The position numbers were made by a program, and so were the translations under genes. Source: a virus. From it: a stretch of 30,939 nucleotides of DNA. The DNA is taken from IMG/VR virus record IMGVR_UViG_3300046718_000774, positions 1 to 30,939 of that record; one strand, written 5' to 3'. Below are positions 15,318 through 24,009 of this stretch, piece after piece; position 1 is the stretch's first letter; every line of letters begins with the position of its first letter. The notes beneath the pieces were generated by a model. The model searched no databases, was not told the DNA's origin, and saw nothing but the letters and a program-made list of their open reading frames with translations.

Positions 15318-16778
15318 GTGGCCCGCACCATCCGTTTCGAAGGTGCTCCCCTCTACCCGAAACAGCGCGCGGCGATCTACGACGAAAACCGGATCAGCTG
15401 CATTGAGGCGTCCACCAAAGCCGGGAAAACCGTTGGGTGTCTCGCCTGGATCGTCGAGCAGTCACTGAAAGGACGGTCGGGTTGGAACTACTGGTGGGTT
15501 GCCCCCGTGTTCGGGCAGGCGGAGATCGCGTTCCGTCGCTGCTGGGCGATGGTCACACCCATCAAAACGATGTGCAAACGCAACCAGTCGAGCATGTACA
15601 TCACCATGCCGAACGGGACCCGCATCTGGTTCAAATCCGGGGAGCGCCCTGACGACCTTTACGGCGAGGATGTGTACGGGGCTGTTCTCGACGAAGCCTC
15701 CCGCATGCGCGAGGAATCATGGCACGCTGTTCGTTCCACCCTCACCTACACACAGGGGCCCGTAAGGATCATCGGGAACGTGCGAGGGCGCAAAAACTGG
15801 TTTTACCGCCTTTCCCGTCTCGCTGAATCCGGCGCCGACAACATGGCGTTTCACCGTCTTACAGCTTGGGACGCTGTTCAGGCTGGTGTTCTCGACCGTG
15901 GCGAGATCGAATCCGCGAAACGGGACTTCGACCGCCTCGGACAGGAGGAAGTGTTCCGGCAGCTGTACATGGCGGAAGCGCTCGACGACGGCACCAACCC
16001 GTTCGGAATCGCGGCGATCGCCTCCTGCTGCGAGGGCGTAACAGGTTACTCAGAGGAAATGGCTCTCGCTGCCGGCGTCGACCTTGCGGGGCGCGGAGCG
16101 ATCAACATCGAGAAAGTTGGTGACGCTGAGTCACGTGACTGGACCGCGATCGTCTGCTTGGACAGGAAAGGGAACGCCACCCACGTTGATCGGTTCCGCA
16201 AGCCGCACCGAGAAACCATGACCGAAGTCACGAAACGGGTGAAACGGACCATGTGCCTGATCGACTCGACCGGCACCGGCGATGCCCTCGTTGAGGACCT
16301 CCAGCGCCGCGGTGACATGCGCGTCCTCGGCTACACGTTTACCGATCGGAGCCGGCAGGATCTCCTCGAAGGACTAGCGCTCGCGATTCAGGAGGGAAGC
16401 ATCCGTTTTCCCGACCTACGGACAAGCGACGGGAAAGGCTCCCTCCGCGAGGAGCTCGAATCGTTCGAGTTCACCTACAGCATCAAGGGTGTCCGCTACG
16501 AGGTCCCGTCCGGATCCGACGACCTCGCGATGGCATTGGCGCTCGCCGTGAAACGGATGCCGTGGCGGAGAACAGCAAAAATGGATCCGGTTGCGCTCCC
16601 CGCCGACGGAACCCCCTGGCACTCAGACGTGGACGGGGCGGAGGCGTGGAGGATCCACACGAAACCCAAGAACCCGGTTCTTTCCGAGCAGAAAGACCAG
16701 GACCTGCCACAGGCAGCTCTTCCTGTCGTGATCGGCGGTGGCGGGGCTGGTTCTAACCGGTGGTCTGGCGGCGGGTGA
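15318..16778 (+). CDS. Terminase large subunit
   Basis: 486 residues: ATPase plus nuclease that pumps DNA into the prohead. The N-terminal motor has the Walker A EASTKAGKT (30-38) and Walker B YGAVLDEAS (120-128, acidic pair D125-E126), with PLYPKQRAAI as the adenine-motif region. The RNase H-like nuclease has acidic residues in GVDLAGRG (D255), LIDSTGTGDAL (D316) and GSDDLAMALA (D401/D402). Length is normal for the family. GTG start without Shine-Dalgarno, seven bases after a -10-like element. An imperfect palindrome copy (16037-16050) lies inside. The small subunit is about 14.6 kb away, an uncommon layout. The TGA overlaps the GTG of the first glycosyltransferase-like gene. Confidence 0.95.
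   Translation: MARTIRFEGAPLYPKQRAAIYDENRISCIEASTKAGKTVGCLAWIVEQSLKGRSGWNYWWVAPVFGQAEIAFRRCWAMVTPIKTMCKRNQSSMYITMPNGTRIWFKSGERPDDLYGEDVYGAVLDEASRMREESWHAVRSTLTYTQGPVRIIGNVRGRKNWFYRLSRLAESGADNMAFHRLTAWDAVQAGVLDRGEIESAKRDFDRLGQEEVFRQLYMAEALDDGTNPFGIAAIASCCEGVTGYSEEMALAAGVDLAGRGAINIEKVGDAESRDWTAIVCLDRKGNATHVDRFRKPHRETMTEVTKRVKRTMCLIDSTGTGDALVEDLQRRGDMRVLGYTFTDRSRQDLLEGLALAIQEGSIRFPDLRTSDGKGSLREELESFEFTYSIKGVRYEVPSGSDDLAMALALAVKRMPWRRTAKMDPVALPADGTPWHSDVDGAEAWRIHTKPKNPVLSEQKDQDLPQAALPVVIGGGGAGSNRWSGGG
16037..16050. repeat. Imperfect palindrome CGTAACAGGTTACT in terL
   Basis: One mismatch to the 14-base repeat, in the last base. It lies within the terminase coding region and may be chance or a weak site. 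Confidence 0.4.
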
Positions 16779-17287
16779 AGATCGTCACCTGCCACACCGG
16801 TGTCATTCACATCGACACGAAACAGTCAATCGAGCGGCACTGGTCGGGCGAATGGCACACCCACCTGATCGATAAACGAGATCCCACCCACTACACGCGT
16901 ATCCTCACCGCCTACTGGGCTGTCGGTGAGGACTTCTGGATCGTCGAACCCGACATCGTGATCCGGGAGGACGTTGTCGAAGCCGTCCAGTCCTGTGGAT
17001 GCGACTACGGTTGCTACCCGTACTCGTGGCTTACCAACGTCGGGCCCGCCCTCGGATGCACATGGTTCCGTGCACCCATCCTTGAACGTCATCAGGACGC
17101 GATGCACTACGTCCAGTCCTCTCGTGTCGGGTGGCAGCAGCAGGACGTGGTTCTCATGCGGCATATACTCGCTGCGCGCGGTGAGCAGCCACACGTCCAT
17201 CTTCCCCCTGTTGAGCATCTAAACCCTCGCAAGCAACTCCAGGAGGGCGCTGACCCGACCGTGATGATGAAAGTTCCCACAAGGTGA
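16775..17287 (+). CDS. Glycosyltransferase-like protein, 170 aa
   Basis: Start GTG 16775 overlaps the terminase TGA (GTGA): MKIVTCHTGVIHIDTKQSIE. DFWIVEPDIVIRED (53-66) resembles the strand plus acidic metal/nucleotide-sugar site of GT-A enzymes, with EPD (58-60) in place of DxD. GWQQQDVVLMRHILAA near residue 125 fits the acceptor-site region seen in galactosyltransferase-like families. Short for a full GT-A enzyme, so it may be a minimal or degenerate member. First gene of the cassette between terminase and portal. Confidence 0.65.
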   Translation: MKIVTCHTGVIHIDTKQSIERHWSGEWHTHLIDKRDPTHYTRILTAYWAVGEDFWIVEPDIVIREDVVEAVQSCGCDYGCYPYSWLTNVGPALGCTWFRAPILERHQDAMHYVQSSRVGWQQQDVVLMRHILAARGEQPHVHLPPVEHLNPRKQLQEGADPTVMMKVPTR

Positions 17288-22271: not shown

Positions 22272-23233
22272 TCACGATCTTCCTCTCCACCTACAACCGG
22301 ATCGAGACTCTCACCAGGACCATTCTCTCTTTCAGGGAGCAGACGCACCCTTACGAGGTAATCGTGATCGACAACGGCAGCGACGACCCTCAGGCGCTGA
22401 ACGCGCTCGACGAGGTCGACAGCTACCCGGAGGTCCTGATCGTGGAGCGCTTCCCGAAGATCAGCGACTACGACGAACTCACCGCTCATTTCAACGAGGC
22501 TTTCGCGAAGAACTCACGTTCCACTAGCGGCGACTGGTACGCGGTTACGGACGCCGACATCTGCTTCGAGAAATCGAACCCTGACTCGTTTCGGGTGTAC
22601 GTGGAGATCGCGCAAGAAACAGAGCTCGCGGTCGGACCGCACACCAGCGTCGACGCTGGCCTGTCGCACGGGTACCCGCTCCGCAGCCGCGTGTGCGCTC
22701 TCGAATCGAGGTTGCTCTACAAGGACACGATGTCGTGGTGGGGTGAGATCCCCTACTCGTGCTGGCAGATCGACACGACCTTCCATTTGTTCCGGAGGGA
22801 AAGGGTGTTCAACCGGTTGCGCATGAACACCGCCAGGGTCGGTCCTCCGTGCGACGCGATGCACCTCGACTGGTACATCGATTTCTGGCATCCAACCAGG
22901 GAGAACTACGTGTACATCAACAACCGTGAGGCGGCAGGATCATGGGGGCGCAACTGGATCGCTGACTACTGGCGGAGATTCCAGGTGAATCCCACGGAAG
23001 CCTTCGAGTTTCTGAACGCGCAGCCCAGGGACCAGAACAACGATTTCTGCAACAACAGCTTCATGCTCTCCTGGGCTCACCAGCATGGTGCCGGCACCCA
23101 GGCCGACCCGAATAGGTCGATCGGTGAGATGTACAGAGCGATCCCGGAGGGGCGCAGGGAGGTCTGGGAGAAGCAGCGAGACTGGACGAACATGATCTAC
23201 CACGATGATTTCTCGAGCCTGGGGTGGGGATGA
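22268..23233 (+). CDS. Family 2-like glycosyltransferase, 321 aa
   Basis: GTG overlapping the upstream TGA: MITIFLSTYNRIETLTRTIL is a standard GT2 opening. VIVIDNGSDDPQAL (31-44) is the (D/N)GS motif, and WYAVTDADICF (90-100) carries DAD (95-97). The C-terminal half has CDAMHLDWYIDFWHPTRENY and a long tail ending YHDDFSSLGWG, unusual for small GT2 proteins; it may bind the acceptor. Soluble. Confidence 0.82.
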   Translation: MITIFLSTYNRIETLTRTILSFREQTHPYEVIVIDNGSDDPQALNALDEVDSYPEVLIVERFPKISDYDELTAHFNEAFAKNSRSTSGDWYAVTDADICFEKSNPDSFRVYVEIAQETELAVGPHTSVDAGLSHGYPLRSRVCALESRLLYKDTMSWWGEIPYSCWQIDTTFHLFRRERVFNRLRMNTARVGPPCDAMHLDWYIDFWHPTRENYVYINNREAAGSWGRNWIADYWRRFQVNPTEAFEFLNAQPRDQNNDFCNNSFMLSWAHQHGAGTQADPNRSIGEMYRAIPEGRREVWEKQRDWTNMIYHDDFSSLGWG

Positions 23234-24009
23234 GCACCACCCAGCCTCTCGTCACCGGCGAGATGTACAAGCACATCGTGGAGCGGGATGAAGCGAGAGC
23301 GCACGGCGTCACGGTGTGCATCCCGTACTTCAACGAGTCGCAGGAGACCATCGAGAGAGCGGTCCAGTCCGCGCTCGACCAGACCGTTAAACCGCGCGAG
23401 ATCATCATCGTCGACGACGGTTCGGAGCAGCCCCATATCCCGGTGCTCATGACGGAGTACTCCCCTCTAATCCGCACGACCAAGATCACCAACAGGGGTT
23501 TGCCGGCAGCGCGGAACACCGCTCTGATGCTCGCGAAAGGGGAGTTCTTCCTCCCGCTCGACTCCGACGACTGGATCGACTCGCGCTACATCGAGCTCAC
23601 CCTACCGGTGATCAAGGCGGGTGCTGACGTTGTCCTGGTCGGACTGCAGGAGCATGGGGATGCCCCACGGAACCGCGACTACATGCCGGGCTACGACATG
23701 CCTCTCGCGAATGTGACGGAGAAACTCCTGTGGACGATGAACAGGTACTTCTACTGTGCTTTGATGCGGACCGAGCTTCTCCGTGAGATCGGCGGGTACC
23801 ACCCAGCGATGGCCGGCTGGCCCGGTATCAGCGGCGGGTACGAGGACTGGGACATGTGGATCGACCTGACCCGTCGGAAAGCGCGGTTCGCGTGCGTGAA
23901 CGAGACCCTCCTCAACTACACCACGAAAGCCGACAGCATGCTCCTGCGGGCGGAGCGAAACAAAGGCATTCTCGTCGATGAAATGAGACGCCATCACCGC
24001 TGCCGATAG
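23230..24009 (+). CDS. Family 2 glycosyltransferase, 259 aa
   Basis: The most canonical GT2 of the cassette: GVTVCIPYFNESQETIERAV (26-45), IIIVDDGSEQ (58-67), the FLPLDSDDWID metal site (107-117; D111, D113, D114) and GGYEDWDMWIDL (202-213), whose ED motif gives the catalytic base. A 25-residue N-terminal extension precedes the fold. Start ATG overlaps the previous TGA (ATGA). Adds a sugar from UDP- or dTDP-type donors, presumably in the same pathway as its neighbours. The last cassette gene, ending 12 bases before the portal gene. Confidence 0.9.
   Translation: MSTTQPLVTGEMYKHIVERDEARAHGVTVCIPYFNESQETIERAVQSALDQTVKPREIIIVDDGSEQPHIPVLMTEYSPLIRTTKITNRGLPAARNTALMLAKGEFFLPLDSDDWIDSRYIELTLPVIKAGADVVLVGLQEHGDAPRNRDYMPGYDMPLANVTEKLLWTMNRYFYCALMRTELLREIGGYHPAMAGWPGISGGYEDWDMWIDLTRRKARFACVNETLLNYTTKADSMLLRAERNKGILVDEMRRHHRCR

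Follow-up and report, generated by a model that had tools for sequence, protein, structure and literature searches.

A glycosyltransferase cassette between the terminase and portal genes of a viral head operon, probably a module for virion glycosylation

What a virus may gain from a long set of glycosyltransferase (GT) genes kept inside its head operon, and which molecule those enzymes would decorate, are the questions raised by IMGVR_UViG_3300046718_000774, the record of an uncultivated bacterial virus, which was analyzed over its whole length of 30,939 bases (hereafter, the window). Between the genes of the terminase large subunit (TerL, ending at 16778) and the portal protein (starting at 24022), 13 genes, all on the + strand and here numbered g1 to g13, occupy positions 16775-24009. 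Neighboring genes overlap by 4-25 nt, with the exception of g5/g6 (71 nt), where the start codon of g6 is uncertain, and a gap of 12 nt separates g13 from the portal gene. A preliminary description of this DNA had given exactly these limits, and its picture of a continuous, overlapping cluster with several GT types, inserted in the head operon, is borne out by gene positions and family matches. The reading favored here, with a probability of about 0.62, is that of a virion-glycosylation module making an O-methylated hetero-oligosaccharide, analogous to those of Corndog/Che8 and the chloroviruses: genes for diverse soluble GTs and for methyltransferases within a head operon, joined in some relatives by genes for sugar-nucleotide enzymes, fit the assembly of a glycan on a virion protein inside the cytoplasm.

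Of the eight genes described beforehand as GT-like, four are firm assignments, two are backed by a predicted fold or a weak family match, one is weakly supported and another is presumptive. Sequences of g2, g12 and g13 were assigned to family GT2 and that of g9 to family GT6, all over the curated cut-offs (Table 1). The g9 profile matched bacterial GT6 enzymes (1e-34) and ABO transferases (1e-24), and g9 shares with this family conserved motifs including HDES; the g9 genes of these viruses keep, however, a DXD motif (DAD) at the site where the bacterial enzyme BoGT has NAN, and GT6 matches found elsewhere among the phages searched had an identity of approximately 25-30%. Matches of g13 to GtrB-like GT2 domains in PHROG were distant only. 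None of the GTs contained a strong membrane helix or hydrophobic segment, so that they look soluble and cytosolic.

The remaining four genes were approached through predicted structures and profile comparisons. For g1, family-library searches gave no family match, while its AF2 (AlphaFold) model (predicted local distance difference test, pLDDT, 74) matched GT-A-type enzymes: the top Foldseek match was the capsid glycosyltransferase of PBCV-1 (2p72; E 2e-3, TMq 0.53), and the best VIA-align match was mannosylglycerate synthase (Z 10.6, root-mean-square deviation (rmsd) 3.5, 148 aligned). The match of g8 to PF13524 fell under the cut-off, and the best VIA-align matches of its low-confidence model (pLDDT 53) were GT-B enzymes, namely T4 alpha-glucosyltransferase (Z 9.5, rmsd 5.2, 237 aligned), T4 beta-glucosyltransferase (Z 9.1, rmsd 6.6, 234 aligned) and others with Z of 8.1 or less; the predicted fold is too poor for identifying the acceptor. 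A weak hhalign match linked g11 to g13 across the N-terminus and the DHD motif, which makes g11 weakly GT-A-like. The case of g6 consists of motif and conservation, with a DDD motif invariant in closer relatives, a GT-A-like N-terminus and a 30% identical homologue in a huge phage; no PDB or Pfam support and no statistical link to any GT were found for it. Comparisons of g6 and g1 with the GT2 genes of the cassette by hhalign gave nothing significant, the profiles being shallow, and PDB sequence profile searches with g1, g6, g8 and g11 gave no useful match.

The arrangement is not peculiar to one contig. Three further lineages have all eight GT genes at the TerL-portal site; their portals are 87, 72 and 55% identical to that of the window, and their TerL proteins are 85% (G003/L005), 69% (G001/L006 and G004/L009) and 55% (G002/L096) identical; in the latter two, the order of g11 and g12 is swapped. 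In L115 (portal 65% identical), g6, g8, g9, g11 and g13 lie upstream of the portal gene on a contig cut at its left end. A rearranged set (g11, g13, g6, g8, g9) was found in L114, flanked by TerL (phrog_38) and portal (phrog_776) genes of other families, unrelated to those of the window; the same operon position has thus been reached in two head modules. Because the arrangement recurs in other contigs, it is due neither to chance nor to a misjoin; the misjoin considered in the preliminary description is moreover ruled out by an identical contig (L004) spanning the g13-portal junction. The accompanying premise that terminase and portal genes are normally adjacent held for six cassette-free loci whose TerL and portal are homologous (24-831 bp apart), but not for Arthrobacter relatives, where 2-3 kb of other genes lie between the two. 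In L014 (portal 66% identical), the 1.2 kb before the portal gene contained an endolysin-like gene and small open reading frames (ORFs), and no GTs.

The catalytic-type motifs of the GT genes were kept across relatives, while the GT proteins diverged faster than TerL, portal and major capsid protein, with mean identities of 58 vs. 89%, 49 vs. 72% and 43 vs. 60% in three comparisons that are not independent of each other. Such a pattern is compatible with a surface structure. Two extra GT-like paralogues were detected between portal and protease in G005, which continues G002; that interval in G002/G005 also contained large low-complexity or beta-helix-like proteins. Both ends of G002 (L102-L105) and G005 (L108-L109) overlap with near-identical genes, which suggests a single, circularly permuted genome of about 72 kb.

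Around this constant set, the companion genes vary. The gene described beforehand as methyltransferase- or hydroxylase-like (g10) matched Methyltransf_24 weakly in the window, and methyltransferase companions were clear in relatives: Methyltransf_24 occurred also in G003 and twice in G002 (the relative of g10 at L104:14929-15480 with PF13578 at 4e-5), Methyltransf_12-type genes in G001 and G002, Methyltransf_11-type genes in G001 and G003, where the window has g7, and FkbM-type genes in G003, at the position of g4, and in L115. Genes for sugar-nucleotide synthesis were found in L115, with a GDP-mannose 4,6-dehydratase (GMD; 485.7 bits vs. an equivalog cut-off of 415), a gene whose best match, under its cut-off, was GDP-L-fucose synthase, and an RmlB-like gene, as well as in L114 (a GMD-like gene). 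The RmlB-like sugar-nucleotide dehydratase gene of L115 (7749-9752) is interrupted by a stretch with LAGLIDADG, probably an intein. The four small proteins announced for the cassette (g3, g4, g5 and g7) are genuine open frames, with relatives detectable only for g3 and g5.

Gene content and order, conservation, motifs and location are read directly in the sequence; from them we infer an expression, an order of action, an acceptor, sugars and a benefit as follows. The cassette would be transcribed late in infection together with the head genes, and its soluble GTs would draw on the host's sugar nucleotides and act in its cytoplasm, with some relatives supplying their own GDP-fucose-type sugars. 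One GT would start the glycan by modifying a virion protein, the capsid or cement protein being the most plausible, and the others would lengthen it sugar by sugar; g9 would likely attach Gal or GalNAc in alpha-1,3 linkage close to the end of the chain, and methyltransferases would cap the product with O-methyl groups, giving the particle a shielding or adhesion coat. The head genes downstream of the cassette include a cement-like protein and the major capsid protein, both possible acceptors. The multi-sugar product and the late expression anticipated for the cassette remain probable and likely, respectively, given the number and variety of GTs and the position in the head operon. A promoter scan found no + strand promoter-like site within the cassette; terminator-like sites exceeded the shuffle mean over the whole region, with just one weak + strand site within the cassette.

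Capsid proteins, host surface polymers and hypermodified DNA bases had all been proposed as targets. Virion proteins are favored here by the soluble-looking enzymes, the head operon, the overlapping frames and the precedent of Firecracker, Che8, Corndog and Myrna. Remodelling of the host surface, in which a lipid-linked or wall polysaccharide would be extended or capped, the receptor altered and other phages or progeny excluded from superinfection, is unlikely: g13 does resemble polysaccharide GTs such as TuaG/EpsD (far under cut-offs), mixes of GMD/fucose synthase and methyltransferase genes are typical of exopolysaccharide clusters, and the g8 homologue of cyanophage S-SCSM1 sits in a large polysaccharide-type cluster, yet no flippase, polymerase, GtrA-like or membrane-anchored GT was found in the cassette by Pfam and hydrophobicity, nor such membrane components among the families detected outside it in two relatives, and the place inside the head operon is fixed, also in the unrelated head module of L114. 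The idea that the GTs add sugars to hydroxymethylated bases, evading restriction, appears the least probable of all. Thymidylate-synthase/Thy1 homologues (PF00303, PF02511) were detected in none of the eight records (several of which, including the window, are fragments), and the genes scanned outside the cassette in G001, G002 and G005 included no DNA-modification family; eight GTs with several methyltransferases would also be excessive for base modification. This idea could appeal to SP-15, whose DNA carries sugars, probably from a GT-containing cluster (PMC5977210), and to g8, structurally nearest to the T4 glucosyltransferases, although in a model of low confidence. The S-SCSM1 relative of g8 (L149 5998-6867) is annotated as a DNA beta-glucosyltransferase, but it lies within a GDP-fucose/glycosyltransferase cluster, with GMD, fucose synthase, fucosyltransferase and methyltransferases as neighbors, and the annotation is probably misleading. 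Very unlikely, too, is a mobile or decaying set of auxiliary metabolic genes with no single product; companions vary and local order shifts, as in the g11/g12 swap and the rearrangement in L114, whereas the eight GT genes are kept together down to 55% TerL identity, with their catalytic-type motifs preserved and open frames overlapping their neighbors.

Several observations weigh against virion glycosylation itself, which is predicted here from genes. Two of the eight GT assignments (g6 and g11) are weak, sugar-nucleotide genes were absent from the window's own lineage, and faster GT divergence is by itself non-specific. By blastp and profile search, no cassette GT was detectably homologous to Firecracker gp33-36, and the best match to Che8 gp108-110 was a generic GT2 segment of gp108 (E 4e-4 over 46 aa), for which reason the cassette would work like the Corndog/Che8 sets rather than being a homologous member of them.

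Table 1. Positions in the window of the cassette genes, the two boundary genes and the head genes downstream.
Feature	Position	Strand	Evidence
TerL (terminase large subunit), upstream boundary	15318..16778	+	PHROG terminase large subunit matches; PF17289/PF04466 in scanned set
g1: divergent GT-A-like glycosyltransferase, invariant EPD motif	16775..17287	+	predicted fold, conservation in 4 lineages
g2: GT2-family glycosyltransferase, invariant DDDD motif	17284..17883	+	PF00535 5.4e-7
g3: small protein	17864..18076	+	43% identical in L005 and L006/L009
g4: small protein	18073..18255	+	open frame; no match in relatives
g5: small protein, one borderline hydrophobic segment	18252..18494	+	79% identical in L005; 19-aa Kyte-Doolittle maximum 1.49
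g6: GT-A-like by motif only (DDD), start codon uncertain	18424..19236	+	conserved in 6 lineages
g7: small protein	19233..19529	+	no homologue in relatives
g8: GT-B-like glycosyltransferase	19517..20416	+	PF13524 0.0036, below cut-off; GT-B matches of low-confidence model
g9: GT6-family glycosyltransferase, DXD (DAD) and WHDESALN motifs	20409..21062	+	PF03414 2.3e-21, above cut-off
g10: S-adenosylmethionine-methyltransferase-like (Methyltransf_24/CmcI-like), weak	21049..21591	+	PF13578 0.0077
g11: divergent GT-A-like protein, invariant LDHD motif	21567..22271	+	6 lineages; hhalign to g13 E 0.003
g12: GT2-family glycosyltransferase, extended at the C-terminus	22268..23233	+	PF00535 1.3e-9
g13: GT2-family glycosyltransferase (DDGS, DSDD, GxED)	23230..24009	+	PF00535 2.2e-27
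Portal protein, downstream boundary	24022..25449	+	tblastn match to phage genes annotated as portal
Head maturation protease, XkdF type, with NUDIX and histidine-phosphatase domains; in one run of genes with the cassette	25631..28042	+	PF14550 6e-29, PF00300 6e-30, PF00293 2e-14
Head scaffold/cement-like protein	29248..29664	+	phrog_673 3e-14; G002 orthologue PF09956 Phage_cement_2 1.5e-4
Major capsid protein	29685..30671	+	phrog_1005 major head protein 2e-70; PF03864 0.0037

Other features of the window and its relatives were recorded alongside. The XkdF-type protease keeps NUDIX and protease domains in L115, while its G001 orthologue (343 aa) aligns with the protease part only, which suggests stepwise domain gain or loss. 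A small terminase-like gene was found at positions 236-682, 14.6 kb from TerL, and a 53% identical homologue in G001 is likewise distant from its TerL. On the minus strand, a tRNA-Lys (TTT) at 12310-12406 overlaps one of two paralogous ORFs (11966-12682 and 12921-13538), which are approximately 34% identical to each other.

Database searches set the cassette apart. In 50,697 phage records, g2, g10, g11 and g12 were without a match, while g6, g8, g9 and g13 had distant matches only; g11, without relatives among 84,980 species genomes, was found only in this virus group. TerL relatives in those species genomes did not exceed 50% identity and were dispersed over various taxa, among them Zavarzinella, Rubellimicrobium and Methylorubrum, and no cassette genes were detected alongside them. 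To our knowledge, phage virion glycosylation has been recognized only recently, in few isolates and with three or four enzymes; what is new here is the size, the modular methyl/deoxysugar part and the TerL-portal niche. If the reading is true, tailed phages would be able to assemble complex heteroglycans on their virions, enzymes for making glycans would be available as a ready set, and the role of a sugar coat for phages outside animals (adsorption, protection, transport) would become testable. The cassette also provides a DXD-type phage GT6.

Among known systems, GtrABC-type serotype conversion finds no counterpart in the cassette, where neither a GtrA flippase nor a membrane-anchored GtrB/GtrC was detected by Pfam, nor any strong hydrophobic segment. 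The low-confidence model of g8 resembles the DNA glucosyltransferases of T4 in its GT-B fold, but the cassette virus has seven further GTs in a head-operon location, and no hydroxymethylated-base pathway was found. Cyanophages S-SCSM1 and P-SSM2 carry homologues of g8 (approximately 26% identical) and of the GT6 gene (approximately 25%), and S-SCSM1 shares with cassette relatives the GMD, fucose synthase and methyltransferase companions; its cluster, however, belongs to a 229-kb phage and lies outside such a head-operon arrangement.

Closer in organization is Corndog, whose portal and protease genes are separated by those of an O-methyltransferase, two GTs and a GlcNAc transferase, for which capsid modification was proposed (PMC4351075); the map of Firecracker, a Cluster O mycobacteriophage of the same group, likewise has O-methyltransferase and GT genes in one operon with the head genes. 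Virion protein glycosylation is reported for Che8, Corndog and Myrna (PMC12363180). Several phage-encoded GT genes inside a structural gene operon, the mark of Corndog/Che8-type gene sets, are present in the window as well, but with eight GTs and variable methyltransferases at the TerL-portal site instead of three GTs and one O-methyltransferase between portal and protease, and in the head operon instead of near the genome end, where the three GTs of Che8 (108-110) are located. In PBCV-1, the capsid protein is modified in the cytoplasm by soluble GTs and a methyltransferase domain that the virus itself encodes (PMC5408694), and this system (A064R, A111/114R, GMD) resembles the cassette in its soluble viral GTs, methyltransferase domain and GDP-deoxysugar synthesis, with the g1 model nearest to A064R by Foldseek; the likeness is not known to extend to sequence, and PBCV-1 is a giant eukaryotic algal virus whose GT genes are expressed early. 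A bolder and more tentative proposal, held at somewhat less than even odds, is that the cassette represents a phage counterpart of the autonomous glycosylation of chloroviruses, in which about eight soluble GTs with exchangeable methyltransferase and sugar-nucleotide genes, kept at the TerL-portal site, would place a large O-methylated heteroglycan on tailed-phage heads, its methyl/deoxysugar part differing by lineage in a serotype-like manner.

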